Source: an uncultured bacterium (GTDB lineage Bacteria; Cyanobacteriota; Vampirovibrionia; Gastranaerophilales; Gastranaerophilaceae). From it: DNA of 64,000 nt. The notes beneath the pieces are model-generated. The model saw only the letters and a program-made list of their open reading frames with translations, was not told the origin of the DNA and ran no database searches. Position numbers and translations under genes: made by a program. Shown here piece by piece: positions 16,646 through 39,318 of the stretch. The stretch is from NCBI GenBank assembly GCA_902777605.1, contig CACYUI010000011.1, forward strand, positions 1 to 64,000, in the 5' to 3' direction. How positions within the stretch are numbered: the stretch's first letter is position 1; every line of letters starts with the position of its first letter.

Positions 16646-16721
16646 GGGTGCGTGGCGCAGTTGGTAGCGCAGTTGACTCTTAATCTCAGGTCTTACAGGG
16701 TTCAAATGCACACCACATAAG
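16646..16721 (+). pseudogene. tRNA-Lys(CTT) 5' half, left attachment site of the island
   Basis: Bases 16646-16685 are identical (40 of 40) to the first 40 bases of the intact tRNA-Lys at 39243-39282. After the anticodon loop the sequence diverges; the T stem no longer pairs and the acceptor 3' strand is lost, so it cannot be a working tRNA. This is what an attL/attR junction looks like after recombination in the anticodon arm. Confidence 0.85.
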
Positions 16722-16969: not shown

Positions 16970-17206
16970 CTAGTGTACATATTCTTGATTATCATTTGAA
17001 CCTTCTGCATTAATGAAGAAGGCATTTATTAAGTCAGCATTTCGCCTGAGTAATTTAACTATAGGAGCTAAGTTATAACATTCCTCTTTATCAGGCTGAG
17101 TTTCACAAAAGTAATCTACAACAACAGCTATGTTATATATGTCATCTGCTAATTTGCTTAACTTTTTAAACTCTTTAGACGTAATGTTATATCCGACTTC
17201 TTCCAT
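16970..17206 (-). CDS. Small hypothetical protein
   Basis: A 78-residue helical protein (MEEVGYNITSKEFKKLSK...) behind a strong GGAGG site. It has two cysteines and no membrane segment. First gene inside the island's left end and separate from the long operon to its right. No family recognised. Confidence 0.7.
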   Translation of the reverse strand: MEEVGYNITSKEFKKLSKLADDIYNIAVVVDYFCETQPDKEECYNLAPIVKLLRRNADLINAFFINAEGSNDNQEYVH

Positions 17207-17326
17207 ACAATGCCTCCTAACTCAAGAGACATCTTACCGCGCAGATATAAGAATAAGCAAGAGGTTTAAAATTAATATAGGTGATAATAGCAAGTACTCA
17301 AACTATTATTAAATGGCAATACTTAA

Positions 17327-19171
17327 TTAGTTCCAAGACACAGTACTATAAACTTGTTCATAATCTTTTTTGATATTTTGCGGTAAATTATTCAAGCATT
17401 CATACGCAATGTCTTTACTTTGTATAAGTACAGAAATATTAAACCATTCTTCATAGATTCTCTTTTTGTACATATCTCCATTTTGCCCCCAATATGCATT
17501 ATACTTTTGAAAATACTCTTCAAGAAAGTCTTTTGCCCTTTGGGCTTTTTCGTTTTCAGGTGCTTTAGAAACAAGAATTGCTAGCAAAGAAAATGGAGGA
17601 ATTGGCATATTCGTTAGCATCTCAATTTCTTTAGATAAAATATCATTATCAATAACTATATTCAATTTAAAAATTGCATCTACTGCTTGCTTTAGAGCAT
17701 TATCTGTATACCATGTATGTAGATTTATATATTTTATAAACAGATCAAAATATTTATTTACATTTGTTTTACTGATTTTCTTTTCTGTTTTTTGAAGATT
17801 TTCTATGCAATAAAACATAACTGTAAAAAACTGCATTATCCTCTTTTTGTTATTTATCATTTCTGAACTATTATAAATATAATCTTCTTCTGTTATATAA
17901 AATTTATTTAAAATTTTTTCAAATAGTTTGGTTACAGATACTTGTTTATTAACAACAAGCCCAAAAATTGAGTCAATTATAACATTTGTATAATAAACAC
18001 CATCTTCTTGGTCTAATGGGGCATAAAATTTATCATCATTTATAGATTTTACATAATTGTTAAGTATAATTTTTCTAATGTAATTTGCTAAAGGTTTATC
18101 CACTTTTTCTATTTTTTGATAAATGTCTAAGTATCTATAGCTAATATTTGTATAATAGTTTTCAAGTCCTTTTGTAAAATACTTTAATGCTAATGGCTTA
18201 TTATTAACCCTTAGAATATTTTTTATTAACCTGTTTTGTACTTGTTTTCTAAATAGTGGTATTAGTTCCTCTTTTTTAGTGTTATATATTGGAACATATG
18301 AAAAATCCGATAGTAAACCGTACCAATAAAATTTGTTGTAACCAAGTCTATCAATATTATCTAAAATTAGTTTAAAATATTTTTTTGCTGAAAAGACTGA
18401 TAGATTTTTGTTGTTTATTTTATCTGCATAATTCAATATTATTAAAGAGATAAAAGAATCACTTATTTTCTTGTATTTTAGAGGAATGGTGCATTCACAG
18501 TTAATATTGCATCGTTTGTAATCATCGTTTAAAGCATGAATTATGACAGGTTTTTTAAATTTATTAATGGTTTCATACCAACAGTTCTTGTTTAAATTAC
18601 ATATAATACCAAGAACTTTTAAAATTATAGGACTAACCTCATACCAAATTCCCCAATTATCAAAATTTCTATACATTTCAAGAATATTGCTATAATTATC
18701 AATACTAAGTACAGAGTTTTCATATCTTCTGTTCTGCTTAAATAAATCCTTGTCCTCTAAAGAATTTATAGCTTTTACAGCATTATTGCAAAATCGATTG
18801 CTATTTGATTGTTTTAGTGCTTTTAACAATTTATTAAAATAATTATACGAATCCTCTTGCTTATTAAAAAGTGGCGAAAATGCCCAAATTAATTCTTGTT
18901 TAGAAAAACAACCGTCTGAACCGAATAATGCCTTGACTATAACATCACTATTCAATATATTAGATTGATCAATATAATATCCGTATTCAGTAAACAATAA
19001 ATCTTTACTGATGAAATCTTTTACTTTCTTATCAGAAAATAACTTCTCTATCAAAGTTATTACTTTTTGTTCTGATAAAGGATATTTTTTAGGATTAAAT
19101 ATAATGCTTAATAATTTTACAAGGCTATTATTAAATTGTTTATTTCTCTTCAAATCTTTTATTTTTTTCAT
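17327..19171 (-). CDS. Large unknown protein, last gene of the hsd-linked operon
   Basis: A 614-residue protein with no recognised domain. It is Lys/Asn/Ile/Tyr-rich, apparently all helical, without signal peptide or membrane segment; helices of 25-40 residues repeat along the whole length, suggesting a solenoid or scaffold. Its start overlaps the preceding gene (19140-20663) by 32 bp and has no good ribosome site, so translation is probably coupled to that gene. Base composition is even more AT-rich than the housekeeping genes. A joint function with the PLD-like neighbour is inferred from the overlap. Confidence 0.8.
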   Translation of the reverse strand: MKKIKDLKRNKQFNNSLVKLLSIIFNPKKYPLSEQKVITLIEKLFSDKKVKDFISKDLLFTEYGYYIDQSNILNSDVIVKALFGSDGCFSKQELIWAFSPLFNKQEDSYNYFNKLLKALKQSNSNRFCNNAVKAINSLEDKDLFKQNRRYENSVLSIDNYSNILEMYRNFDNWGIWYEVSPIILKVLGIICNLNKNCWYETINKFKKPVIIHALNDDYKRCNINCECTIPLKYKKISDSFISLIILNYADKINNKNLSVFSAKKYFKLILDNIDRLGYNKFYWYGLLSDFSYVPIYNTKKEELIPLFRKQVQNRLIKNILRVNNKPLALKYFTKGLENYYTNISYRYLDIYQKIEKVDKPLANYIRKIILNNYVKSINDDKFYAPLDQEDGVYYTNVIIDSIFGLVVNKQVSVTKLFEKILNKFYITEEDYIYNSSEMINNKKRIMQFFTVMFYCIENLQKTEKKISKTNVNKYFDLFIKYINLHTWYTDNALKQAVDAIFKLNIVIDNDILSKEIEMLTNMPIPPFSLLAILVSKAPENEKAQRAKDFLEEYFQKYNAYWGQNGDMYKKRIYEEWFNISVLIQSKDIAYECLNNLPQNIKKDYEQVYSTVSWN

Positions 19172-20663
19172 CGTAAAAGAATTCCTCTATGATTGTATCT
19201 TTATCAGAACATGTATTCCACAATTCTTCTGACTCATTAAAATAATGTTCATATGATTTGAAGAATGAAACACCTTTTTGGAAATTATTAATAGAATTTG
19301 TAAAACCGTATTCCTGGTTTTTAGTTGCAATCCATCTATCGTGAAATGTTTCTTTTGTTTTAAACCTTTTATTTCCATTTTCGTCAAGTTTTATATTTTT
19401 TGTATCATCATCTATAATATACTCATACTGTCCTTTTTTATCTTTACTTTTTAAGCACAGTAATTTTATTCTTATATTTTTAAATCTATACTGATCATTT
19501 TTAATATACTCTTTTAAATATTCAGGAATATTATTTCTACACCCCATTAACCTAAATTCTATATTTTTAATTGAATTTAAAATCCCGATATAATCCTCAA
19601 TACCTGCATTGCAGAACAAATATGGGTCCATTAGATAAATATATTCTGGAAGATTATTATCAAGTCCTTTATCTTTTGATATATCTTCCAATAACTTTAC
19701 CAAAAACGGATAAGCATCTTGTTTTTTCACAAACCTTGAAAATTCTGAATTTTTAATCCTTTTTATATGGTTTGTCCAAAGTTTTCGAGTGTGTTCAAGA
19801 CTTGAAACAGTTTCAGATAATTCTGTTTTTTGTTTATTTGTTTCTATTGAATAATAACTCTTTTTCTGTTCAATATTATTTTTTATATAGTGTATTTTAG
19901 GATTTCCACCTCCAAAAAAGACAAAATTTCTTTTTAGTACACATTTCTCTGTTTTTAAATTTGAAATCTCAATATCAATTTCATAATCTGCATCTTGTAA
20001 CTCAAAGTCATAAAATTTCTCTTGGACCCTAAATGTTTGATTTAGAATCAAATCATCATAAGATTTTACTTTAATGTTGCATATATAATCCCCTTTTTTA
20101 TATTTCTGAAAACCTAATGTAATATATTTATTATTTTGATGGGTTATGTTAACATCAATCTCATGTATATCAACAAAATGAAGTATATTCCCGACTCTAT
20201 CAATTAAATTATACAAATTTACATCAAGACTTTTTTCGAATTTGTTTTTTTCTTTGACATCAAGTTTCATAAAAATATTTCTGAGTTCTAAATCCGTATT
20301 CCAGTATTCATACAAATTACAATTTGAATAAAAAGGACTGAGAATTTGGTTGTATATATCTGGATTAAATTCATCACGGTGCAATAAAAAGGACTCTCTT
20401 GGAATCTCACCTATATTATATATAACCTCAATATCACCAAAAGATATTGATTTTCGTTTTATTATATTATTCTTAAAATTATTGAGTTTTTTATTACATA
20501 AAAAAGCTTCATATATAATTATCTTTTCTCCGTTTAAACATTCAAAAACTGCTGTTTTTTTAAATTTGTTATTCTTTTCATCAACAGAACTTTGTTTGAT
20601 AGTTGTCAACAAGTTTAAACTTTTATCTTCAAGTTTTAAAATAACTACCTTAACTTTAGCCAT
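19140..20663 (-). CDS. Unknown protein with phospholipase D-like C-terminal half
   Basis: A 507-residue protein. Residues about 1-270 are of unknown fold, beta-rich. The C-terminal part reads LPEYIYLMDPYLF (about 345), FRLMGCRN, IRIKLLC, then TFHDRWIATKNQEYGFTNSINNF (about 455-475). A DPYLF strand followed by an FHDRW motif resembles PLD-like nuclease/phosphatase folds found in defence genes, such as the VPA1262-type family; this is by-eye resemblance, not a search. Only one H-x-D-like motif is seen, so activity would need dimers. It starts 23 bp after the hsdR stop and overlaps the next gene by 32 bp. Confidence 0.8.
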   Translation of the reverse strand: MAKVKVVILKLEDKSLNLLTTIKQSSVDEKNNKFKKTAVFECLNGEKIIIYEAFLCNKKLNNFKNNIIKRKSISFGDIEVIYNIGEIPRESFLLHRDEFNPDIYNQILSPFYSNCNLYEYWNTDLELRNIFMKLDVKEKNKFEKSLDVNLYNLIDRVGNILHFVDIHEIDVNITHQNNKYITLGFQKYKKGDYICNIKVKSYDDLILNQTFRVQEKFYDFELQDADYEIDIEISNLKTEKCVLKRNFVFFGGGNPKIHYIKNNIEQKKSYYSIETNKQKTELSETVSSLEHTRKLWTNHIKRIKNSEFSRFVKKQDAYPFLVKLLEDISKDKGLDNNLPEYIYLMDPYLFCNAGIEDYIGILNSIKNIEFRLMGCRNNIPEYLKEYIKNDQYRFKNIRIKLLCLKSKDKKGQYEYIIDDDTKNIKLDENGNKRFKTKETFHDRWIATKNQEYGFTNSINNFQKGVSFFKSYEHYFNESEELWNTCSDKDTIIEEFFYDEKNKRFEEK

Positions 20664-20686: not shown

Positions 20687-23641
20687 CTAATCTTCTTGAT
20701 TTCTTAATTCATTATACAAATCTGCCAGGAACAGTTTTTTAATAAATTTAAGTTTATCTTTATTCTGCAATATATCCTTGAAGAAATTGTCATTCTCTTC
20801 ATAACGATCCATAAGCAGTTTATCAAAACCTTTATCTGATAATGTATCATAGGCTGTTCTGTCTCCAATTTTTGCTGAATTTACGATTTTTGTATCTTTC
20901 ATCATGTCAGCTCTTAGTTGTGCCAATACTTTATCTTGTTCAGTAAACTCTGTTCCGAATTTTTTGTTAAATTTCTCTATAATCTCTGACAGAGCATCTT
21001 TTTCCTTGTTAGAACCAGCACCACCTGCACCACTAACAGGAGGAATGAGACCTTCTGCATTTTCTAATGTAATTTTTCCATCTGCTGTTTTTTGAAGTTT
21101 GTAGTATTCAAGTAATAATTCATCATTCAGATTAACTTTTTCATCATTATCTTTTGGAAGAACTGTTGCAAGATATTTTGTATAAATGTATAACTTTTGC
21201 ATATCTTTATCAAACATTCTGCAAACCTGTATAATAAATGAATAAATTCTGTTAAATGAATGAATTAGAGATTTAAACTCATCTTTCTTTTTGTCTTCTA
21301 AAACTTCGTATCTTTGTTTTGCAGGTTCAAGAAGTGAGGAAAGTCCGCTAAGAGTTGGAATAGTTTTTTGATAAAACTTCTTAGCAAAGGTTTCCACTTC
21401 ATTTTGCTGATAGATGTGAAAATCTTCTAATTGACGTTTTATTGTATAAATTAAATTTGGATCAGTTTCTTCTTCAAGTACTGTTGCTTCGTAAAATGGT
21501 TGAAATGATTTTCTAATTTCTTCTTGAGTGTTGGCAAAATCAAGAACGAATGTATCTTCTTTGCCTTTCATTGTTCTATTTAATCTTGATAATGTTTGTA
21601 CGGCTTTTACTCCGTTTAACTTTTTATCTACAAACATTGTATGTAGCAAAGGTTCATCAAATCCAGTTTGATATTTTTCGGCAACGATAAGCATATCAAA
21701 GTTTTCGTGGAACTCTTTTTTTAGCTGAGTTTCTTTTATACCGTTAATTTTTTCTTCTGTCCACTCTTGTCCGTTATCAGAAACATTTCCTGAGAAAGCT
21801 ACTAACACATCTAAGTCATTGTAGTTGTGTTCTTGAATATATCTTCTAAATTCAAACAAATATCTTACTGCGTGTAATCTTGACGCTGTAACAACCATTG
21901 CTTTTGCTCTGCCGTCAATCTTATTTTTGGTAATCTCTCTAAAGTGTTCAATTATGATAGCAGTTTTTTGAGCAATGTTATGAGGGTGTAAACTTTCAAA
22001 CCTTGAAACAGCTCTTGCGCCTTTTGTTTTGTCGTATTCAGGATCACCCTCAATTTTTTTTGCTATTTGATAATACTGTTTGTAAGTTGTGTAATTTTGA
22101 AGAACATCTAAAATAAACCCTTCTTCTATTGCTTGCCTCATGGAATAAATATGAAATGCTCTGTAATTCCCATTTTCTTGTCTTTCTCCGAATAGCTGAA
22201 GTGTTTTGTTCTTTGGTGTTGCAGTGAAAGCAAAGAATGATATGTTTTTATGCATACCATGAGTTGATAATTCACGCACTAAATTATCTTCGTAATCTTC
22301 TTGCCTGCTTTCTTCTTCGGCTTCTTCTTTTGCGTATTGCTCCAATACTTCTTCGGTATCACCTAAAGCTGCTTTCAATTTCTTTGCAGCTTGACCTGTT
22401 TGAGAGGAATGAGCTTCATCTACTATTACAGCATATCTTTTTCCTGTTGCTTCAACATCCTGATAAATGTATGGGAACTTTTGAAGTGTTGTTATAATTA
22501 TTTTTGCACCGTCATTGAGTGCTTGCTTTAACCCTGCGGAACCATCAGTAACACGTCTTACAACTCCGTCAATGTGGTCAAATTGGTAGATAGTTTCTTG
22601 TAATTGACTGTCTAAAATTTTTCTGTCTGTTACAACGATTACGGAATTAAAAATAACTTCATCATTTTTGTCGTGCAAACTTTGTAATCTGTGAGCAAGC
22701 CAAGCAATAGAATTTGATTTGCCACTACCTGCACTATGCTGGATTAAATAGTTTTTACCGCTGCCGTTTTCTTTTACATCAGCAAGAAGTTTTGTTACAA
22801 CATCTAATTGGTGATAACGTGGAAAAATCATTGTTTCTTTTCCGTCTTTTGCCTGTAAGTGCATATATTTGTGTAAGATTTCCATTAAGGAATCTTTTGT
22901 CAAAACTCTTTTCCAAAGATAAGATGTCATATAATCATCTTCTACAATTGGATTACCTTTACCGCCGACATTTCCTGCTCCGTTTGAACCTTGGTTAAAC
23001 GGCAAGAAATATGTACCTGCACCTTGTAATCTTGTTGTCATAAATACGTTGTATAAATCAACGGCAAAATGCACTAAAACTCTTTGTTTAAACTCAAACA
23101 TCTTATCTCTTGTAGCACGGTCAAACTTGTATTGATTTATAGCGTTTGAAACATCCTGACCTGTGAATTGGTTTTTAAGTTCCATTGATACAACAGGAAT
23201 ACCGTTAAGCAAAAGAACAATATCAATGCTTCTTTCATCTTTCAGAGAAAACTTCATCTGACGAGTGCAATGCAAAATATTTTGGTTATATCTTTCAACT
23301 GTTTCAGGGTTTAATGTTGTTTCAGGCTTGAAGAAACATGGGTAGAATTTTACACCTCGGTCAACAAAACCGTGTCTTAATACCCATAATATACTTGTAG
23401 CAGATACTTCATCTTGAAACCGTCTTAAAAGAGCTTGTTCAGGATTATTTGGATAATTCCTGCAATGTTTTTCCCATTCTCTTGGCTGAGTAGATTGGAT
23501 AAACTTTAAGAACGTATCTTCATCTAAAGCCGTTGCCCTGTTCAAATGTTCAGGAGCTCCTTTTTCATAACCGCCTTCTGTTATAAGATAATTTTCAATC
23601 GCTTCTTCAAAGTTCTTTTCTTTTAATAAAGTATCTTGCAT
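20687..23641 (-). CDS. hsdR: Type I restriction enzyme R subunit
   Basis: HsdR is the ATP-driven translocase and nuclease of the type I complex. The 984 residues hold an N-terminal PD-(D/E)xK nuclease (D140, then ELK at 154-156), Walker A HSAGSGKS (about 302-309), the DEAH box (408-411, VDEAHSSQTG), FFAFTATPKNK, and the later helicase motifs (TGFDEP, QTLSRLNR). The C-terminal helical part would bind HsdM. AAGGAAAT precedes the ATG, 3 bp after the fic stop. No frameshift or missing motif is seen, so it should be active. Confidence 0.97.
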   Translation of the reverse strand: MQDTLLKEKNFEEAIENYLITEGGYEKGAPEHLNRATALDEDTFLKFIQSTQPREWEKHCRNYPNNPEQALLRRFQDEVSATSILWVLRHGFVDRGVKFYPCFFKPETTLNPETVERYNQNILHCTRQMKFSLKDERSIDIVLLLNGIPVVSMELKNQFTGQDVSNAINQYKFDRATRDKMFEFKQRVLVHFAVDLYNVFMTTRLQGAGTYFLPFNQGSNGAGNVGGKGNPIVEDDYMTSYLWKRVLTKDSLMEILHKYMHLQAKDGKETMIFPRYHQLDVVTKLLADVKENGSGKNYLIQHSAGSGKSNSIAWLAHRLQSLHDKNDEVIFNSVIVVTDRKILDSQLQETIYQFDHIDGVVRRVTDGSAGLKQALNDGAKIIITTLQKFPYIYQDVEATGKRYAVIVDEAHSSQTGQAAKKLKAALGDTEEVLEQYAKEEAEEESRQEDYEDNLVRELSTHGMHKNISFFAFTATPKNKTLQLFGERQENGNYRAFHIYSMRQAIEEGFILDVLQNYTTYKQYYQIAKKIEGDPEYDKTKGARAVSRFESLHPHNIAQKTAIIIEHFREITKNKIDGRAKAMVVTASRLHAVRYLFEFRRYIQEHNYNDLDVLVAFSGNVSDNGQEWTEEKINGIKETQLKKEFHENFDMLIVAEKYQTGFDEPLLHTMFVDKKLNGVKAVQTLSRLNRTMKGKEDTFVLDFANTQEEIRKSFQPFYEATVLEEETDPNLIYTIKRQLEDFHIYQQNEVETFAKKFYQKTIPTLSGLSSLLEPAKQRYEVLEDKKKDEFKSLIHSFNRIYSFIIQVCRMFDKDMQKLYIYTKYLATVLPKDNDEKVNLNDELLLEYYKLQKTADGKITLENAEGLIPPVSGAGGAGSNKEKDALSEIIEKFNKKFGTEFTEQDKVLAQLRADMMKDTKIVNSAKIGDRTAYDTLSDKGFDKLLMDRYEENDNFFKDILQNKDKLKFIKKLFLADLYNELRNQED

Positions 23642-23644
23642 AGT

Positions 23645-24550
23645 TTATTTCCTTTTAATTTTGTTTTTTTGTTCTTTTTTAAATAACATATATCCGCTTT
23701 CAGAATACAAATATGGCTTTATTTGATTTTGCTTAACTCTGTACCTGATTGTAGCAACGGTTAATCCTGTTAACTTAGCAAATTCGCTAATTGTAAGCAG
23801 CTTGTCATCAGGTTCAATATTTTTGGATGTATCTAAAATATCAATAGCAGTTTGCATAGATTTATCAAGCATTTTAAGCATAAACTTGTTATATTTTTCT
23901 TCATTTTGAGTTAGTTGAGCATTTTCAATAGCATCTAAATACCTTTTTCTATCTCTTGGACGGATAATTATCGGAGAATATCCAGCTTTTAATAATAAAA
24001 GATTCATAAGAAGTCTTGCACATCTGCCGTTCCCATCTACAAAAGGGTGTATTGATACAAACTTTAAGTGAGCATTAATAGCAGTATGGATATCATTAAT
24101 ATCTTGATTTTGTAACCAAAGAATAAAATCTTCCATAAGTTTAGGAACTTTCATCGGATTCGGTAGAATTACTCTTGAACCTGATATTCTAACCATACAA
24201 TTCCTGTAAAAACCTGCGTTTATATCATCAATGCCTGTTAATATTATTCTATGCAGCTCTAAAATATGTTTTTCTGTTATTTTATCGTTATTTTCTATGT
24301 ACTCGTAACATTTATTAAACGCTTTTGCATGATTAACAGCCTCCTGATAATAAACAAAAGGTTTAGAAGAAGATGTAATTCTTTCATTAATTACAAGCTC
24401 TGTTTCTTTTTTGGTTAAAGTATTTCCCTCAATAGCATTAGAAGAATATGCAAGTTCGGAAACCAACCAATTTTTAAATGTTTGTTTGCTATTGCTATTT
24501 TTTAATAACTCTTTTAGTTGCTTGTATTTTGTATTGATTTTTTCTAACAT
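23645..24550 (-). CDS. Fic-family AMPylase with HTH tail
   Basis: Fic proteins usually transfer AMP to a target hydroxyl. In this 301-residue protein the active loop HPFVDGNGRCAR is at 168-179. The inhibitory helix motif SSNAIEGN is at 36-43, so it is a class II Fic that holds itself inactive. Residues about 250-290 form a DNA-binding segment (TISEFAKLTGLTVATIRYRVKQNQI, MerR-like). Two perfect dyads lie directly upstream (24569-24636), suggesting that it represses its own transcription. It sits between DUF2971 and hsdR. Confidence 0.93.
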   Translation of the reverse strand: MLEKINTKYKQLKELLKNSNSKQTFKNWLVSELAYSSNAIEGNTLTKKETELVINERITSSSKPFVYYQEAVNHAKAFNKCYEYIENNDKITEKHILELHRIILTGIDDINAGFYRNCMVRISGSRVILPNPMKVPKLMEDFILWLQNQDINDIHTAINAHLKFVSIHPFVDGNGRCARLLMNLLLLKAGYSPIIIRPRDRKRYLDAIENAQLTQNEEKYNKFMLKMLDKSMQTAIDILDTSKNIEPDDKLLTISEFAKLTGLTVATIRYRVKQNQIKPYLYSESGYMLFKKEQKNKIKRK

Positions 24551-24683: not shown

Positions 24684-25580
24684 TTAATATCTTTTTGGTA
24701 TTTTAGACCCTTTTACATCTGCACTTGAAAATTTAGAAAAACTGATTAAGGATTTAACTCCTTGTATCAACATTTCTTGTTCTTTTGCAGGTGAAACATA
24801 TATCATTGAAATGGCATTATTTTCTAATGGCATTTCATAGTAAGGGATATAACAACCATTATTTATTCTAAATTTACAATTCCTGATAATTTCACAATCC
24901 TTATCAAAAATAACAAACCTATATTCATTTTCGACTTCATATTCTTTCGGTTTAAAAAACAAATTATAAAACTCTAAAATCCCTGATAAACTTGTTACAA
25001 TCTTTTTGTCAAAATTATCAACATTATTATTTGTATTTTGATTGTAGTAGTTATTATAATTATCTAATACATTAACCAATAATTTCTCTTGGTCTTCTAT
25101 CTTATATATAACCTTGCCATTAATTAGCATTATCTCTGGATTATGTTCAAAAGTTTCATAGACATCTGTTTCTATATTATAACCAACTCCATTATCGTTT
25201 TTAGTATAATAATTCCATAATGACAAACAATCTTTTTCGGTAGAAAATGAAGCAACATAGCACTTATTCTTCCATATTGGAGTGTTTTTGTATACGCAAA
25301 AGTCCGTTTTGCTAAAATCACTACAAAGTTTATAAACCAATTTTTTAAAGTCAGAAGATAAATTATCTTTATTTAATAACGGTTTTATTATTTTATATAT
25401 ATAAGTTGCTTCTGAAGAATCATTCAAAAACCCTATATCAGAGAACCAAATTTTTCCACTATCCACAATGCCTTTTAATCCAACAGCAGAAGTATAGTGG
25501 TAAATCTTTCCCGTATGCTGGGTCTTAATATCTGCTAATCGTTGCCGTAAATTATCTTCAATATTAAACAGTTGTTCCAT
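24684..25580 (-). CDS. DUF2971-family protein
   Basis: A 298-residue protein with the DUF2971 pattern: IYHYTSAVGLKGIVDSGKIWFSDIGFLNDSSE near residue 25, then YVASFSTEKDCLSLWNYYTKNDNGVGY, and a C-terminal IYVSP. The function of the family is not established; members are frequent in phage-defence and mobile regions. The ATG at 25580 shares its A with the hsdS stop (TAATG), so the two are translationally coupled. The HYTS...FNDSSE arrangement resembles ADP-ribosyltransferase-like folds, an inference only. Confidence 0.85.
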   Translation of the reverse strand: MEQLFNIEDNLRQRLADIKTQHTGKIYHYTSAVGLKGIVDSGKIWFSDIGFLNDSSEATYIYKIIKPLLNKDNLSSDFKKLVYKLCSDFSKTDFCVYKNTPIWKNKCYVASFSTEKDCLSLWNYYTKNDNGVGYNIETDVYETFEHNPEIMLINGKVIYKIEDQEKLLVNVLDNYNNYYNQNTNNNVDNFDKKIVTSLSGILEFYNLFFKPKEYEVENEYRFVIFDKDCEIIRNCKFRINNGCYIPYYEMPLENNAISMIYVSPAKEQEMLIQGVKSLISFSKFSSADVKGSKIPKRY

Positions 25581-26893
25581 TAGCACACCTTTCTTTTCCC
25601 TGTTACACATTCGTAAATCAGAGATTTTTTGTATTCGGTAAATTTTTCTATAACCTGTTCTTTATCCGCTATTGCCTTATCTATTTCAGAACATTTTTTG
25701 TCAAGATATTCAGCAATTTGTTGTTGTTCAATTAAAGAAGGATAAGTTACAGTAAAATCATTAAGTGTTGCTAAGGACAAGTTAGCAATAGTAGTTCCAC
25801 TTAAACTTAAATCCATTATAAATTTTGCAACATTGCTTTGCAGATAATACCTTATATATTTCTTATTTTGTTCTTTATTTAAAGTTACATAGCCTGCACT
25901 CTTTCCTAATAAAACAATTTCGCCATTATAAAATGAGGTTTTTCCATATGTAGCACCATTTAGTGTTATGAAAATAGTATTCTCACTTAAATTTGGTTTA
26001 TTGTAGTTCTCAAATTCTGCTAAATTTATTTTCTTTGTATCTTCTTTAAATATTAAATTATCCTGACCTATATTGTTGCCATTAACAAAATATATATCAC
26101 CTGAATCATCATAATTTGGAGTTGAATGAATCCCATCACCAATACTTGTAGATAAATATTTCAGTTTTATAACTTCCCAATGTTGAGGGATTTTGCCTAT
26201 CCATTCTATACCGCTGTCTTTTAGAGGTGCGGATTTGTCTAAACCTTTTGTTACGGCTTCGGTGATAATAGATTGCTTATACTCTTTTAACTTTTCAATA
26301 ACCGCTTTTTCCGTTTCAACAACCCTATCAATCTCCCCACACTTCTTATCCAAATAATCAGCAATCATTTGTTGTTCTTTTACACTTATATAAGGAATTT
26401 TATAATCTAAAATATTACCCATAGAGATATTAGGTTGTGCTGAGCCTGCTGATAATAATGCTACATACTGCATAAAACTTTCATTATCAAGACAATATCT
26501 TATAAACTTATTATATTTACTACGGATTATACCAACTCGTTGATTAATATATGCTTGTTTATCATCACAAATTACTGCTAATTTACCTGTAGTTGCACCA
26601 CTCATTGCAATTACAATATCATTTACTTTTAACTCGTAAGGTTTTAATTCTTCACGACTATCAACCTTTAAGCAAGTTTCATATTGAACTCGGTTATTTT
26701 GTATATCACCAATCCTAACAACAGGAACTTCTCCGTCAATGTCCATATTTTCACTATTAAAGGCATACCCATTAACAAAATTTGAACACCAAGCCAATTT
26801 TGCAAACTTCCACTCTTGAGGAATTTCACCAATCCACTCAATCCCCGAATCTTTATATGTATCGTATTTTTTAACAGTTTGTTCTAATTGCAT
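25580..26893 (-). CDS. hsdS: Type I restriction enzyme specificity subunit
   Basis: HsdS recognises the two halves of the target site. Its 437 residues contain two target-recognition domains, each opened by YKDSGIEWIGEIPQEWK-type text (KDSGIEWIG at about 12 and 212) and closed by a conserved helix (QQMIADYLDKKCGEIDRVV and QQQIAEYLDKKCSEIDKAI). It is full length. In this operon hsdS is separated from hsdM by three foreign genes. There is no second hsdS copy or inverted half nearby, so phase variation by inversion is not supported. Confidence 0.96.
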   Translation of the reverse strand: MQLEQTVKKYDTYKDSGIEWIGEIPQEWKFAKLAWCSNFVNGYAFNSENMDIDGEVPVVRIGDIQNNRVQYETCLKVDSREELKPYELKVNDIVIAMSGATTGKLAVICDDKQAYINQRVGIIRSKYNKFIRYCLDNESFMQYVALLSAGSAQPNISMGNILDYKIPYISVKEQQMIADYLDKKCGEIDRVVETEKAVIEKLKEYKQSIITEAVTKGLDKSAPLKDSGIEWIGKIPQHWEVIKLKYLSTSIGDGIHSTPNYDDSGDIYFVNGNNIGQDNLIFKEDTKKINLAEFENYNKPNLSENTIFITLNGATYGKTSFYNGEIVLLGKSAGYVTLNKEQNKKYIRYYLQSNVAKFIMDLSLSGTTIANLSLATLNDFTVTYPSLIEQQQIAEYLDKKCSEIDKAIADKEQVIEKFTEYKKSLIYECVTGKRKVC

Positions 26894-27408
26894 ATTTTAC
26901 TTTCTTTATCCATTATTTCTTCATATTTCTTGTATAGCTTGTCAAACATTGCTCTATTGTTTGTATATTCTTCTAATGGTAAATTATAGATACTCCAAGG
27001 AGTCCCGCGAGAGGGTACAAAACTTTTTAAAGAAGTTATTATTTTATACTCTAAATCGTAAATTTCCTGTGGAAAAAGATACTTTGTTGTGAAATTATAT
27101 TTAAATAAATCTGCAATAACTTTTTCCATATCTGTTATAACCATTTCATCATTTAAACCATTTGGAACAATTATCCTTGCTTCATAACCTTTTGTATAGT
27201 GAATATCTTGATGGAACTTACCCCAAGTATCGAATATACTTTTAATGTGTTCTATTCGTAATTTTAGCAATTCAACTTGTTGTTGCTTATATTGAATATT
27301 TTTCTGCTGATAAATAAACCAAGCAGTACATATAGCAATTGTTGGTGTTAATAATGCAGAGAGAATTTCTATTCCAATCTTAACCGTGTTTATAGATATA
27401 TTACACAT
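26884..27408 (-). CDS. Single-pass membrane protein next to the SIR2-like gene
   Basis: A 174-residue protein with one N-terminal membrane helix (IEILSALLTPTIAICTAWFIYQQ, about 10-32) and a soluble helical remainder beginning with a QQQVELLKLRIEHI-type coiled coil. No known family. The ATG at 27408 behind GGAG is preferred; a longer start at 27429 is possible. It overlaps the SIR2-like gene by 8 bp and hsdS by 10 bp, so it is locked into the operon. Paired with the SIR2 protein it could be a membrane effector or anchor. Confidence 0.8.
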   Translation of the reverse strand: MCNISINTVKIGIEILSALLTPTIAICTAWFIYQQKNIQYKQQQVELLKLRIEHIKSIFDTWGKFHQDIHYTKGYEARIIVPNGLNDEMVITDMEKVIADLFKYNFTTKYLFPQEIYDLEYKIITSLKSFVPSRGTPWSIYNLPLEEYTNNRAMFDKLYKKYEEIMDKESKICN

Positions 27409-28435
27409 TAATAATTTCTCCTTTTTCATCTATGTTGACTCTAGACATGAGTTCTTTTTGCATAAATTCTTGCATTGCATTTGGCTTGCAAAAATCAAAA
27501 TTACATTTATTTTCGCCAAAAATGTTTATGTATCTTTGTTTTAAATTATCAGTAGTATCTGTATTAATTACATATACTACTGGTGAACAACTATTTAATT
27601 TCATTGCTGATTCAAATAAATATTTTACACTTAAATCAGTAGTGGGGAATGAAAAACCAATAATATATATTTTTTGTGCTTGGGCAATATATTTAAAAGC
27701 ACTATTCCACAACAATTGTATTGTATTATTTTTATAAAATTTAGTTTTATCTAATACAGGTGGTACTATAAATGGTTTATATACTTCAACTAATCTCTGT
27801 TCTATCTCTGTTTCATTATCACTACAGTATATTTGGCTATGAGTATCATCACCGTTATAGTACCAATTTGCGGAACCATGCAATTTTAATATTTCTGGCA
27901 TAGCATTAGTCATAGACATTAAGTCTTTAACAGTATTAGCAATATCTACAATCTTACCTCTATAATAAGGTTCATAATGTTCACCACTTTTTGTATATAG
28001 AGCAACTCTCGGATTATCTTTTTCACATAATATAAGATTTTTTTCTACAATTAAATCATAATTTAAAGTAATAACAGGCGAATTATTATTCATAATATAT
28101 TGCCATAATGGTTTGTATGTTAAATTCTGCGTAGTGTTATGGTATAAAGAACCATTTGAAAAAAAATCTTTTATTTGTTTTGCAATATGAATGTATAAAA
28201 TGTTATCTAAGCATCTTTCATTTTCAGTTTTCCATGGCAAATCAGTTGCTAAATATGTTAGCAAAGATTCAAAATTGTTTTTACACGATTCAGGCAAAAA
28301 CTCTTTTCTTCCATAATCAGGTAATTTTGAATATTGCTCACCAATAATTTCTTTTGTTAAATCACTCATTAATGGAAAATGTTCATCAATTGCCTTTGAA
28401 AAACCTGCACCTAAAAAGAATACATCGTTAGTCAT
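27401..28435 (-). CDS. SIR2-like domain protein
   Basis: A 344-residue protein with the SIR2-like NAD-binding pattern: GAGFSK at 9-14, TLNYD (about 123-127) and KLHGS with H186, then YIIGFSFPTTDLSVKYLF (about 267-284). Related SIR2 domains in defence systems (Thoeris, DSR, SIR2-pAgo) destroy NAD upon infection. A very strong ribosome site (GGAGGGGAGGGG) precedes the ATG; it includes a GGGGTAAATG motif. It starts directly after the RhuM-Doc gene and overlaps the membrane-protein gene. A two-gene defence module is inferred. Confidence 0.9.
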   Translation of the reverse strand: MTNDVFFLGAGFSKAIDEHFPLMSDLTKEIIGEQYSKLPDYGRKEFLPESCKNNFESLLTYLATDLPWKTENERCLDNILYIHIAKQIKDFFSNGSLYHNTTQNLTYKPLWQYIMNNNSPVITLNYDLIVEKNLILCEKDNPRVALYTKSGEHYEPYYRGKIVDIANTVKDLMSMTNAMPEILKLHGSANWYYNGDDTHSQIYCSDNETEIEQRLVEVYKPFIVPPVLDKTKFYKNNTIQLLWNSAFKYIAQAQKIYIIGFSFPTTDLSVKYLFESAMKLNSCSPVVYVINTDTTDNLKQRYINIFGENKCNFDFCKPNAMQEFMQKELMSRVNIDEKGEIINV

Positions 28436-29440
28436 TTACCCCTCCCCTCCTCTATTCAGAATACTCAAAACAATCTGTTTTACGGTTTCCATTTCTTCAG
28501 GTTTTGAGGTTGCTATCAAGAGCGTCAGAGCAAACAGGGTTGAATTATCTATTATCGGCAAGCCATTTTTATAAAGCATATTGTTTCTATTCAAGAAATA
28601 CAAGAAACAACTTGCACCGATTCTTTTGTTTCCGTCTGCAAAACTGTGATTTTTTACTATCAGATATAATAGGGTTGCTGCTTTTTCTTCTAATGTCGGA
28701 TAAAGTTCTTTTCCGTCAAAGGTTTGATAAATCTGATTAACCGAACTTGCAAAACTTTCATCCTTTGGAGTTGCAAAAACATCTGACGCAAACCCTGACT
28801 TCATTTTATCAATGACTGTCAAGAACTCCTGTTCTTCAATTCTAACAGCTTCCTTTTGTGTTAAACCTTTGGTATCAAGTTTTTTGTGGTCGTAATTATC
28901 CAATAAATCAAGTCCGCCTGCAAAATTATCCATAAGTTTTGCAACATCTTTTGCTTCATTTAACGATTGAACCTGATATTCTAAGCTCCTTGAAAGAAGT
29001 TTTATCGTATCTTGCAGAGTTTTAATCTTGTCTTGTTCCTGTTTTAGTTTATGCTCATTGATTGCATAACCTTTTGTCATATATTCTTTTAAAACAGTTG
29101 TTGCCCATTTACGAAACTGTGTAGCCGTTTTGGATTTAATTCTATAACCGACAGAAAGTATCATATCAAGATTATAGAAAGCAAGTTTACGGGAAACCTC
29201 TCTCTTACCTTCTTTTCGAACTTGTAAGAAATCCTTACAAGTTGAAATTTGTTCTAACTCCTTTTCCTCATAAATATTTTTTATGTGCATAGTAATATTT
29301 TGAGAAGTAGTTTCAAACAATTTAGCCATCATATCCTGAGTTAGCCAAATTGTTTCATCTTCTAACTTCGCTTCAAATGAAATGTTTCCATTCTCATTTT
29401 TATATATAACTATTTCACCTTTGTTGCCTTTATCAGTCAT
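28436..29440 (-). CDS. RhuM-Doc fusion protein
   Basis: A 334-residue protein with two parts. Residues about 8-125 match the RhuM virulence-protein domain (IWLTQDMMAKLFETTSQNITMHI, YNLDMILSVGYRI, FRKWATTVLKEY). After a helical linker, the C-terminal part is a Doc-type Fic domain with HSFADGNKR at 265-273. Doc proteins phosphorylate EF-Tu; what the fusion does is not known. It overlaps hsdM by 8 bp and has GAGGGG before its ATG. Such RhuM genes are often embedded in type I RM operons. Confidence 0.92.
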   Translation of the reverse strand: MTDKGNKGEIVIYKNENGNISFEAKLEDETIWLTQDMMAKLFETTSQNITMHIKNIYEEKELEQISTCKDFLQVRKEGKREVSRKLAFYNLDMILSVGYRIKSKTATQFRKWATTVLKEYMTKGYAINEHKLKQEQDKIKTLQDTIKLLSRSLEYQVQSLNEAKDVAKLMDNFAGGLDLLDNYDHKKLDTKGLTQKEAVRIEEQEFLTVIDKMKSGFASDVFATPKDESFASSVNQIYQTFDGKELYPTLEEKAATLLYLIVKNHSFADGNKRIGASCFLYFLNRNNMLYKNGLPIIDNSTLFALTLLIATSKPEEMETVKQIVLSILNRGGEG

Positions 29441-31160
29441 TAAATATCCCCTCTAATACTCCGTCAAGAGATTTTTCAAGTTCTCTTATCTCTGCCATAA
29501 TATCCTCAGAAGGTTTCGGCGGAATGTATTTGTAGAAATATCTTGTGAATGGGATCTCATAACCAACCTTAGTTTTCTTTTCATCTATCCACGCATCAGG
29601 AGCATAAGGAAGAACCTCACGTTTAAAGTATTCTTGAATATCCTCTTTTAAAGGTACATTTTCAGTATCTCTTAAATTGGTATCAGGAACAGGCTTACCG
29701 CTCTTTAACACAGGGTTGCCGTTTTCATCTTTTTCAGGTCGTTCAACAACGATTTTTGAATACCCAAAATCTTCCGTATCAAAGATTTTACTAACTTCAT
29801 TTTGAGTAAAATCAGCATAGATTCTTGTTATCTCATCTATATAATGTTTTGGAATATCGTTTCTCTTGTTACCCAAAGATTTACGGCGTTTTTCAAACAT
29901 ATTGTTTGCATTAATCAGTTGAACTTTACCTTTTCTGCGGTTTTCTTTCTTGTTAGAAAGTACCCAAATATATGTTGCTATGCCTGTATTGTAAAAAATG
30001 TCATTCGGTAAAGCGATAATAGCTTCAAGTAAATCATGTTCCAAAATATACTTTCTGATATTAGATGGGCCTGAATCAGCATCACCAGTAAATAGTGGTG
30101 AGCCGTTATGAATAATGGCAATTTTACTTCCACCCTGTGTAATATCTTTCATTTTATGAATAGCCGTTTGCAAGAAAAGCATTTGACCATCACCAACAGC
30201 AGGAAGTCCTGCACCAAATCTTCCGCCCTCACCTAATTTTGCCTCATCTTCAACAGCTTTTTTATCGTTTTTCCATTCTCTGCCAAATGGTGGATTTGAA
30301 AGTATATAGTCAAATTTTTCGTTCTTAAAGTTGTCATCAGACAATGTATTACCATTGCGAATTTTATCAGCATCATTGCCTTTAATAAGCATATCCGCTT
30401 TACAAATAGCAAATGTTTCGTCATTGATTTCCTGTCCGAATGGTAACAATGTTGCAGAACTGTTTAATTTTTTCAAATAATCTTCTGCAACCGACAACAT
30501 ACCGCCTGTTCCACAAGCAGGGTCATAAATAGTCTTAGCAACATTACTTGTTAAAATGTCATTATCATTCGTAAACAAAATGTTTACCATAAGTTCTATA
30601 ACTTCTCTTGGAGTGTAGTGCTGTCCTGCATCTTCGTTATGAGCTTCTGAAAATCTGCGGATAATCTCTTCAAAGATATAACCCATCTCTAAATTAGAGA
30701 TCTTATCAGGGTGTAAATCTGCTTTAGGAGTTGTAAATTCCTGAATAACAATATAAAGAAGGTTTTTATCAGCCAAACGCGTTATTTCGTTATTAAAATC
30801 AAACTTTTCAATAATCTGTCTTACATTTTCTGAAAAACCGTCTAAGTAGTTTTTAAAATTAGCTTCAATGTTGTTAGCATCATCTAATAAACTTTCAAAA
30901 GTGTATTTGCTTGTATTATAAAATTCATAACCTGACGCTTTCTTCAAAAACTGTTCACGCATAGGAAAATCTTCTGCCATAGAGTTGTGTTTATCCAAAA
31001 CAGCCTGCTTTGTATCAGCCAAGATACAATCAAACCTTCTTATAACAGTTAAAGGAAGAATTACTTTTCCGTATTCGTGCGGTTTATAAACCCCTGTTAA
31101 TTTATCAGCAATAGCCCAAATAAGATTGGCTTTTTCATTAATATTAGACGTTAAGCTCAT
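29433..31160 (-). CDS. hsdM: Type I restriction enzyme M subunit (DNA methyltransferase)
   Basis: HsdM methylates adenine and with HsdS forms the modification enzyme. The 575 residues show the N-terminal HsdM helical domain, the AdoMet-binding DPACGTGG (213-220) and the catalytic NPPFG (289-293). GAGG precedes the ATG. This is the first gene of the long minus-strand operon that runs to 17327. The upstream gap (31161-31356) separates it from the HTH gene. Confidence 0.97.
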   Translation of the reverse strand: MSLTSNINEKANLIWAIADKLTGVYKPHEYGKVILPLTVIRRFDCILADTKQAVLDKHNSMAEDFPMREQFLKKASGYEFYNTSKYTFESLLDDANNIEANFKNYLDGFSENVRQIIEKFDFNNEITRLADKNLLYIVIQEFTTPKADLHPDKISNLEMGYIFEEIIRRFSEAHNEDAGQHYTPREVIELMVNILFTNDNDILTSNVAKTIYDPACGTGGMLSVAEDYLKKLNSSATLLPFGQEINDETFAICKADMLIKGNDADKIRNGNTLSDDNFKNEKFDYILSNPPFGREWKNDKKAVEDEAKLGEGGRFGAGLPAVGDGQMLFLQTAIHKMKDITQGGSKIAIIHNGSPLFTGDADSGPSNIRKYILEHDLLEAIIALPNDIFYNTGIATYIWVLSNKKENRRKGKVQLINANNMFEKRRKSLGNKRNDIPKHYIDEITRIYADFTQNEVSKIFDTEDFGYSKIVVERPEKDENGNPVLKSGKPVPDTNLRDTENVPLKEDIQEYFKREVLPYAPDAWIDEKKTKVGYEIPFTRYFYKYIPPKPSEDIMAEIRELEKSLDGVLEGIFND

Positions 31161-37914: not shown

Positions 37915-38864
37915 ATGTCTGTTTATTATGTAAAAAAATCTAAGAGGTGGTATTACTCTTTCATGTTAAATCATGAACGTTGTCATGGTGCCTGCAAGGG
38001 GTGCATAACCATATCGGACGCACTTGAATATGAGGCTGATGTAAAGCATGAGCTAAGTCTAATCCAACGGAACAAGCTTTCTATTGCGAATCAAATAACT
38101 GTAAGAGAAATGTGTAATATGCTTATGCAGTATTCAAAAGCTAATAACTCTAAACATCAATACGAACAGAACTGGCACAAGGTAAGAATTTATAAAAAGT
38201 TTTTCGGTTTATATACCACTATAAACAGGATTACGCCTGGTAAAATAGAGGAATTTAAGCAATCTTTATTAAACCAAGGTTTAAAAAATTCAACAGTAAA
38301 TAGGTACTATTCTTCTTTATCCAAAGCTTTTAACTTGGTTATCATAAACTATCAGTTAAATATGTTAAATCCATGCAAATGCGTACAGAAGTTAAAAGAA
38401 GATAATCAGATAATAAGATATCTTTCAGAAGATGAAGAGAAACGATTATTTACAGTACTCCCTGCCCATTTGAAACCTATTATCGTGTGTGCCCTTACTA
38501 CAGGTTTAAGGCTATCTAACATTCTTAATCTAAAGTGGGAAAGTATCAATTTCGACATAGGTTTTATTGAAATACTTCGTCAAGAAAATAAGGGACATAA
38601 GAGAATACAGATTCCGTTAAGTCAGAAATTCAGAGTAGAATTAGAGAAAATCGGAATTAAGGATTCGGGGTACATTTTTATTAATCCAAAAACAGAACTA
38701 CCATATAGAGGAATCAGAAAATCATTTAAGACAGCATTAAAGCAAGTGATTTGCAAACAGTAAAAGAATATTTGGCACACAGTGATTTGAAGACCACACA
38801 GAGATACCTTCACCCTGTTAATGAGAATATGTTAAAAGCCGTTAATATATTAGACAGTTTTTAA
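37915..38864 (+). pseudogene. Tyrosine integrase with internal deletion and frameshift
   Basis: The first frame (282 codons to 38763) has the N-terminal SAM-like domain and the catalytic arginine in ALTTGLRLSNILNLKW (R199), then the beta-strand lysine region. After FKTALK the frame breaks; the next frame reads ASDLQTVKEYLAHSDLKTTQ and RYLHP, carrying the H/W-box (AHS) and the nucleophile tyrosine, and ends at 38864. The HxxR box (normally HDLRHTFAS) that should lie between is missing, so about 25-30 residues were deleted. The enzyme cannot be active. It lies at the usual place beside the tRNA. Confidence 0.88.
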
Positions 38865-38878
38865 ATTATTTTCGAACT

Positions 38879-39242: not shown

Positions 39243-39318
39243 GGGTGCGTGGCGCAGTTGGTAGCGCAGTTGACTCTTAATCAATTGGTCGTGGGTTCGA
39301 GTCCCACCACACCCACCA
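39243..39318 (+). tRNA. tRNA-Lys (anticodon CTT), right attachment site
   Basis: A 73-nt cloverleaf with encoded CCA: D arm GCGC/GCGC, anticodon stem GTTGA/TCAAT with loop CTCTTAA (anticodon CTT), T arm GTGGG-TTCGAGT-CCCAC, discriminator A. The acceptor has one C-A mismatch (position 6). Its first 40 bases are repeated exactly at 16646. The tRNA's upstream region lies inside the island, so its promoter is island-borne. Confidence 0.95.

Follow-up and report, generated by a model that had tools for sequence, protein, structure and literature searches.

In a stretch of 64,000 nucleotides from an uncultured Gastranaerophilales bacterium (the window), two overlapping genes, P0001 and P0002, lie behind hsdR at the end of a type I restriction-modification (RM) operon, in a slot that holds other genes in one sister genome and is empty in another. 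We give about even chances to the reading that P0001 and P0002 form an anti-phage module of two proteins that was acquired horizontally, travels as exchangeable cargo between hsdR and a conserved small ORF of the RM operon and is expressed with it. Two-gene cargo embedded in an RM operon is a known kind of arrangement, and the two proteins are unclassified. An earlier reading of this DNA from its letters alone (the sequence-only reading) had claimed two ORFs of 507 and 614 aa with a 32-bp overlap (19140-19171) at the end of the restriction operon. Both frames were reproduced at exactly those coordinates, and they are co-directional with a complete hsdR, whose stop codon lies 23 bp ahead of the P0001 start. 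The pair and its borders are:

19140-20663, minus strand: P0001, gene for a 507-aa orphan protein
17327-19171, minus strand: P0002, gene for a 614-aa protein, predicted to be all-helical; overlaps P0001
17254-20702, minus strand: exchangeable cargo segment of about 3.45 kb, its genes at 24.7% GC (blastn against L035 and L037; junction sequences)
20687-23641, minus strand: hsdR, complete, 984 aa, with SWI2_SNF2, HSDR_N and T1R_D3 domains; upstream border of the slot
16970-17206, minus strand: conserved small ORF of 78 aa, which closes the slot in the window, in L035 (17278-17532) and in L037 (2369-2644)

The frames of P0001 and P0002 are both long and intact, and their GC content by codon position (0.32-0.34 / 0.21-0.22 / 0.19-0.20) is coding-like. 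A Shine-Dalgarno-like AGAGGA for P0002 was found at 19183-19188, inside the 3' end of P0001, and from the overlap and this internal site we read hsdR, P0001 and P0002 as one transcript, with the last two translationally coupled. The GC content of the pair is 24.7-24.8%. ORFs of 200 aa or longer in the same genome, of which 305 were sampled from about 464 kb (20 stretches and the window), have a median of 33.2%, and the two genes rank fifth and sixth lowest among them. Their common low GC is consistent with joint acquisition. Another cluster of very low GC in the same genome (L057, G000:C12:1-20000; ORFs of 22-25% GC) is possibly a further island.

Two sister genomes from the genus of the window, one for each of the other states of the slot, were compared with it. 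In G709 (L035), hsdR has 96% DNA identity to that of the window and the small ORF 93%, and between them a 219-aa and a 475-aa gene stand in place of P0001 and P0002. The 219-aa gene is weakly similar to Abi_alpha (E 0.0027, which falls short of the curated cut-off) and to PDC-M36B (7e-4); the 475-aa gene matches DUF2971 (8e-7) and PDC-S31 (4e-25). In G691 (L037) the small ORF follows directly behind hsdR, which represents the empty site. As the homology between window and G709 ends at 17253 and restarts at 20703 in blastn, the cargo can be delimited to about 3.45 kb. RM-embedded defence cargo lies co-directionally within an hsd operon or at its end, and in related genomes its slot is empty or has other defence-like occupants; both features were found here. 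Since one sister genome carries a defence-like module in place of the pair and another has nothing there, an undescribed defence module is the best reading of the pair. The corresponding claim of the sequence-only reading thus stands as to a discrete exchangeable module at the operon end, but not as to the PLD and VPA1262 assignments that came with it. The small ORF (78-91 aa across the window, L035 and L037) is likely a real gene, because synonymous codon differences outnumber non-synonymous ones (10:5, 24:13 and 18:15), and it is possibly a regulator or an immunity-type protein. RNA folding of the outer border of the slot gave no structure above shuffles, and a comparison of the module DNA with E. 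coli genomes gave no match. The hsdR of G709 is split over two frames (562 and 403 aa; L035:12137-15090) despite its 96% DNA identity to the intact gene of the window.

In the direction of transcription the operon reads hsdM, RhuM-Fic, SIR2_2-like, 181-aa gene, hsdS, DUF2971, Fic-MerR, hsdR, P0001, P0002 and the 78-aa ORF, and it lies as a whole on an island of about 22.6 kb between perfect 40-bp repeats:

29433-31160, minus strand: hsdM
28436-29440, minus strand: gene for a RhuM-Fic protein (PADLOC PDC-S23)
26884-28435, minus strand: 181-aa gene and SIR2_2-like gene, cargo of the slot that precedes hsdS
25580-26893, minus strand: hsdS
24684-25610, minus strand: gene for a DUF2971 protein, weakly PDC-S31-like, at the same place in L035
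23645-24550, minus strand: gene for a Fic-MerR protein, cargo between the DUF2971 gene and hsdR
16646-16685, plus strand: 40-bp direct repeat, the 5' half of a tRNA-Lys; outer end of the island
39243-39282, plus strand: second copy of the repeat, in the tRNA-Lys(CTT) gene 39243-39318
37915-38763, plus strand: tyrosine integrase-like gene beside the tRNA, apparently interrupted (read by eye)

The repeat corresponds to the 5' part of the tRNA-Lys(CTT) gene instead of the usual 3' part. In the integrase-like region (37915-38875, plus strand) the reading frame ends at 38763, and the C-terminal part (LAHSDLKTTQRYLHP...) is encoded in a different one; the stretch between the two parts seems to be without the usual HxxR segment. 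Two further slots of the operon are variable. Ahead of hsdS, where the window has the SIR2_2-like and 181-aa genes (26884-28435), L035:6592-8029 carries unclassified genes of 241 and 239 aa, which look related to each other and both contain YLDILG near the start. Ahead of hsdR, the Fic-MerR gene of the window (23645-24550) is matched in position by unclassified genes of 148, 119 and 359 aa in L035:10262-12125, and similar genes of 304 and 122 aa are found at this place in L038. A more distant relative has AbiH beside hsdM.

The other slots of this and related operons hold RhuM-Fic, SIR2_2, Fic and AbiH, and judged by this company a defence function of P0001 and P0002 is about as probable as its opposite. 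The defence reading is supported by the tRNA-Lys island, the shared low GC, the overlap with its internal Shine-Dalgarno-like site and the precedent of TgvAB and DarTG2. It is weakened by the fact that genes unrelated to defence can settle in such slots of RM operons as well.

Searches for relatives gave little. Neither protein had a match in Pfam, PADLOC, NCBIfam, PHROGs or PDB sequences. Relatives of P0001 were found neither in 287 genomes of the family, 386 of the phylum and 383 of the order (overlapping sets) nor in phage records, plasmid records or viral contigs. For P0002 there was one relative among the matches listed, in another Gastranaerophilales genome, of the same family (G124/L019), which aligns to residues 367-604 with 36-37% identity. 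This gene lacks its 5' part and has no P0001 alongside. Two D12-type methylase genes and a truncated gene for the AlwI endonuclease precede it, and a type I hsdR-hsdM-hsdS set follows, its hsdR of a different type (DUF4145-HSDR_N). The vicinity of type I hsd genes and of a type II RM remnant supports the defence reading; this second tie of P0002 to RM genes is suggestive, but the P0002-like gene is itself a remnant. Two RM-type loci have been joined by recombination at L019:951-3419, where the scar is seen as the truncated AlwI gene running straight into the P0002-like gene with its missing 5' part. The intact pair was found in its own genome only, among the matches listed, which weakens the defence reading. 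Several low-scoring candidates were rejected as chance matches: PF24229 and a NikA-like entry (below cut-off), L002-L009 as P0001 relatives (E 0.01-0.07 over short segments), L013 (inside a histidine-kinase/response-regulator region), L012 (an unrelated gene), L028 (inside unrelated genes), the Piwi entries 8ifk/8j8h (E 0.67, segments out of order) and a Variovorax phage segment (E 0.5).

The tight overlap and the translational coupling would also suit a toxin-antitoxin or abortive-infection pair, in which P0001 would be the toxin (a nuclease or another activity) and P0002 its neutraliser, and which would stabilise the island or kill infected cells. The Abi_alpha-like gene among the alternative occupants of the slot points the same way, as does DarTG2 in a slot of another type I RM operon (PMC12255303). 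However, 507 and 614 aa are large for toxin-antitoxin components, no toxin-antitoxin family was matched, and of the P0002 gene no more than the 3' part survives in the relative, which shows no sign of antitoxin retention, so that we consider this explanation rather unlikely. It is likewise improbable, and a little more so, that the pair is decaying or non-defence cargo, that is, orphan genes without an anti-phage role that hitch-hiked into the island, e.g. out of a phage or a plasmid. The lack of P0001 relatives in the phylum, order and family genomes, viral contigs, phages and plasmids, the very low GC and the 5' truncation of the only P0002 relative among the matches listed would fit such genes, but both frames are long, intact and coding-like in their position-specific GC, and the alternative occupants of the slot are defence-like. 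Accessory subunits that work with HsdR, HsdM and HsdS, e.g. in assembly, anti-anti-restriction or DNA targeting, could be expected co-directionally 23 bp from hsdR and, as for the P0002 relative, next to type I hsd genes, but they are quite unlikely. The operon of G709 (hsdR 96% identical in DNA) is without the pair and the slot of the other sister is empty, so that the enzyme seems not to need P0001 and P0002. The hsdR beside the relative is of another type (DUF4145-HSDR_N).

For P0001 the sequence-only reading had noted a pattern typical of PLD-like folds. P0001 does contain DPYLF (residues 346-350) and FHDRW (440-444), the latter followed by GFTNSINNF. The pattern hydrophobic-DPY ... H[DE][RK] ... 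GxSxN was matched by 1 of the 305 ORFs and by no sequence among 20,000 shuffled versions of P0001, but it was written post hoc, with the strings in view, and the counts are indicative only. The order DPY(L) - HDR - GxTNSxN resembles one half-site of the PLD superfamily (PLDc_2, MIT_C), and the C-terminal part alternates alpha/beta in a low-confidence model. In contrast to the superfamily, HxKxxxxD is absent: P0001 reads H441-D-R-W-I-A-T-K448, with R at the position of K and K at that of D, and the motif is found in a single copy. No PLD model matched the C-terminal part at E values up to 10. A PLDc_2 search of the own genome detected four strong PLD domains, with P0001 not among them, and an MIT_C search of the same genome had no match, P0001 included. 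Homology to the PLD domains of the own genome was rejected at an hhalign probability of 0.2%. The single-sequence AlphaFold model of P0001 (pLDDT 33) is too poor to use; its layout is beta-rich at about 1-260, with helices at 289-330 and alpha/beta at about 335-480. With the canonical motif absent, the profile tests negative and the model unusable, we treat 'PLD-like' as a lead; membership of P0001 in the PLD family is not established. The suggested kinship to VPA1262-type genes found no support, as no NCBIfam or Pfam model that would point to VPA1262 matched P0001 or its parts at E values up to 10. A published VPA1262 primer sequence had no match in viral contigs, and the paper naming VPA1262 lists the gene as an island marker only.

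The description of the 614-aa protein as helical agrees with its model, which contains helices only (mean pLDDT 56, best blocks 70-87). In structure comparison HEAT/ARM solenoids scored best; their Z of about 9-12 is often reached by helical models, and no Foldseek match had an E value below 0.001. With moderate confidence, P0002 is predicted to be a HEAT/ARM-like all-helical solenoid. It would resemble importin/transportin and the PP2A scaffold as a stack of helices, but it is without sequence similarity to them, and helical solenoids match many unrelated proteins.

Under the preferred reading of an anti-phage module, P0001 would be the effector, with a degenerate PLD-like half-site (DPYLF, HDRW, GFTNSINNF) in its C-terminal alpha/beta part that might cleave or nick the nucleic acid of phages, possibly once two copies have formed a dimer. 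Its beta-rich N-terminal part may recognise the target or the trigger. P0002 would serve as an alpha-solenoid scaffold, which either keeps P0001 inactive or recruits it to the target; holding or recruiting P0001 in this way would explain the translational coupling. The pair may then back up restriction as a second barrier. A nuclease activity of P0001 together with a scaffold role of P0002 is speculative and, taken as a specific proposal, has a low probability. It is somewhat less doubtful, yet still tentative, that the pair is a new anti-phage system in which an effector with a beta-rich sensor part and a degenerate, HxR-type single PLD-like half-site is controlled or delivered by a large alpha-solenoid partner, the families of both being absent from current defence and domain libraries and spreading as exchangeable cargo of type I RM operons in gut Gastranaerophilales.

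Defence modules inside RM and related operons have already led to new systems, namely TgvAB, DarTG2 and Hma-embedded candidates (PMC11411939, PMC12255303). In Gastranaerophilales, two unclassified protein families now occupy a slot that is bounded by genomes with an empty site and with an alternative occupant. As more unclassified genes are present in the slots nearby, the operon may be a compact source of candidates for phage challenge. A full-text search returned no paper that contains both Gastranaerophilales and restriction-modification. The pair can be likened to RM-embedded defence because it shares with TgvAB and DarTG2 the pattern of a single slot in which modules are exchanged and which may also be empty. 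TgvAB is a two-gene GmrSD-type system of proven activity in V. cholerae, where it lies inside a type I RM operon of VPI-2, with DUF262 and DUF1524 in TgvA/TgvB (PMC11411939). As in the window, a genomic island carries a type I RM operon with two embedded genes; here, the pair sits after hsdR, is a candidate system and matched neither DUF262 nor DUF1524 in Pfam and PADLOC. DarTG2 lies inside a type I RM system on the RptR island of EPEC, where the site between hsdS and hsdR has been called a potential recombination hotspot (PMC12255303). It, too, consists of two genes that occupy a slot in a type I RM operon, but this slot is between hsdS and hsdR, and DarT/DarG domains were not found in P0001 and P0002, which occupy the slot behind hsdR.
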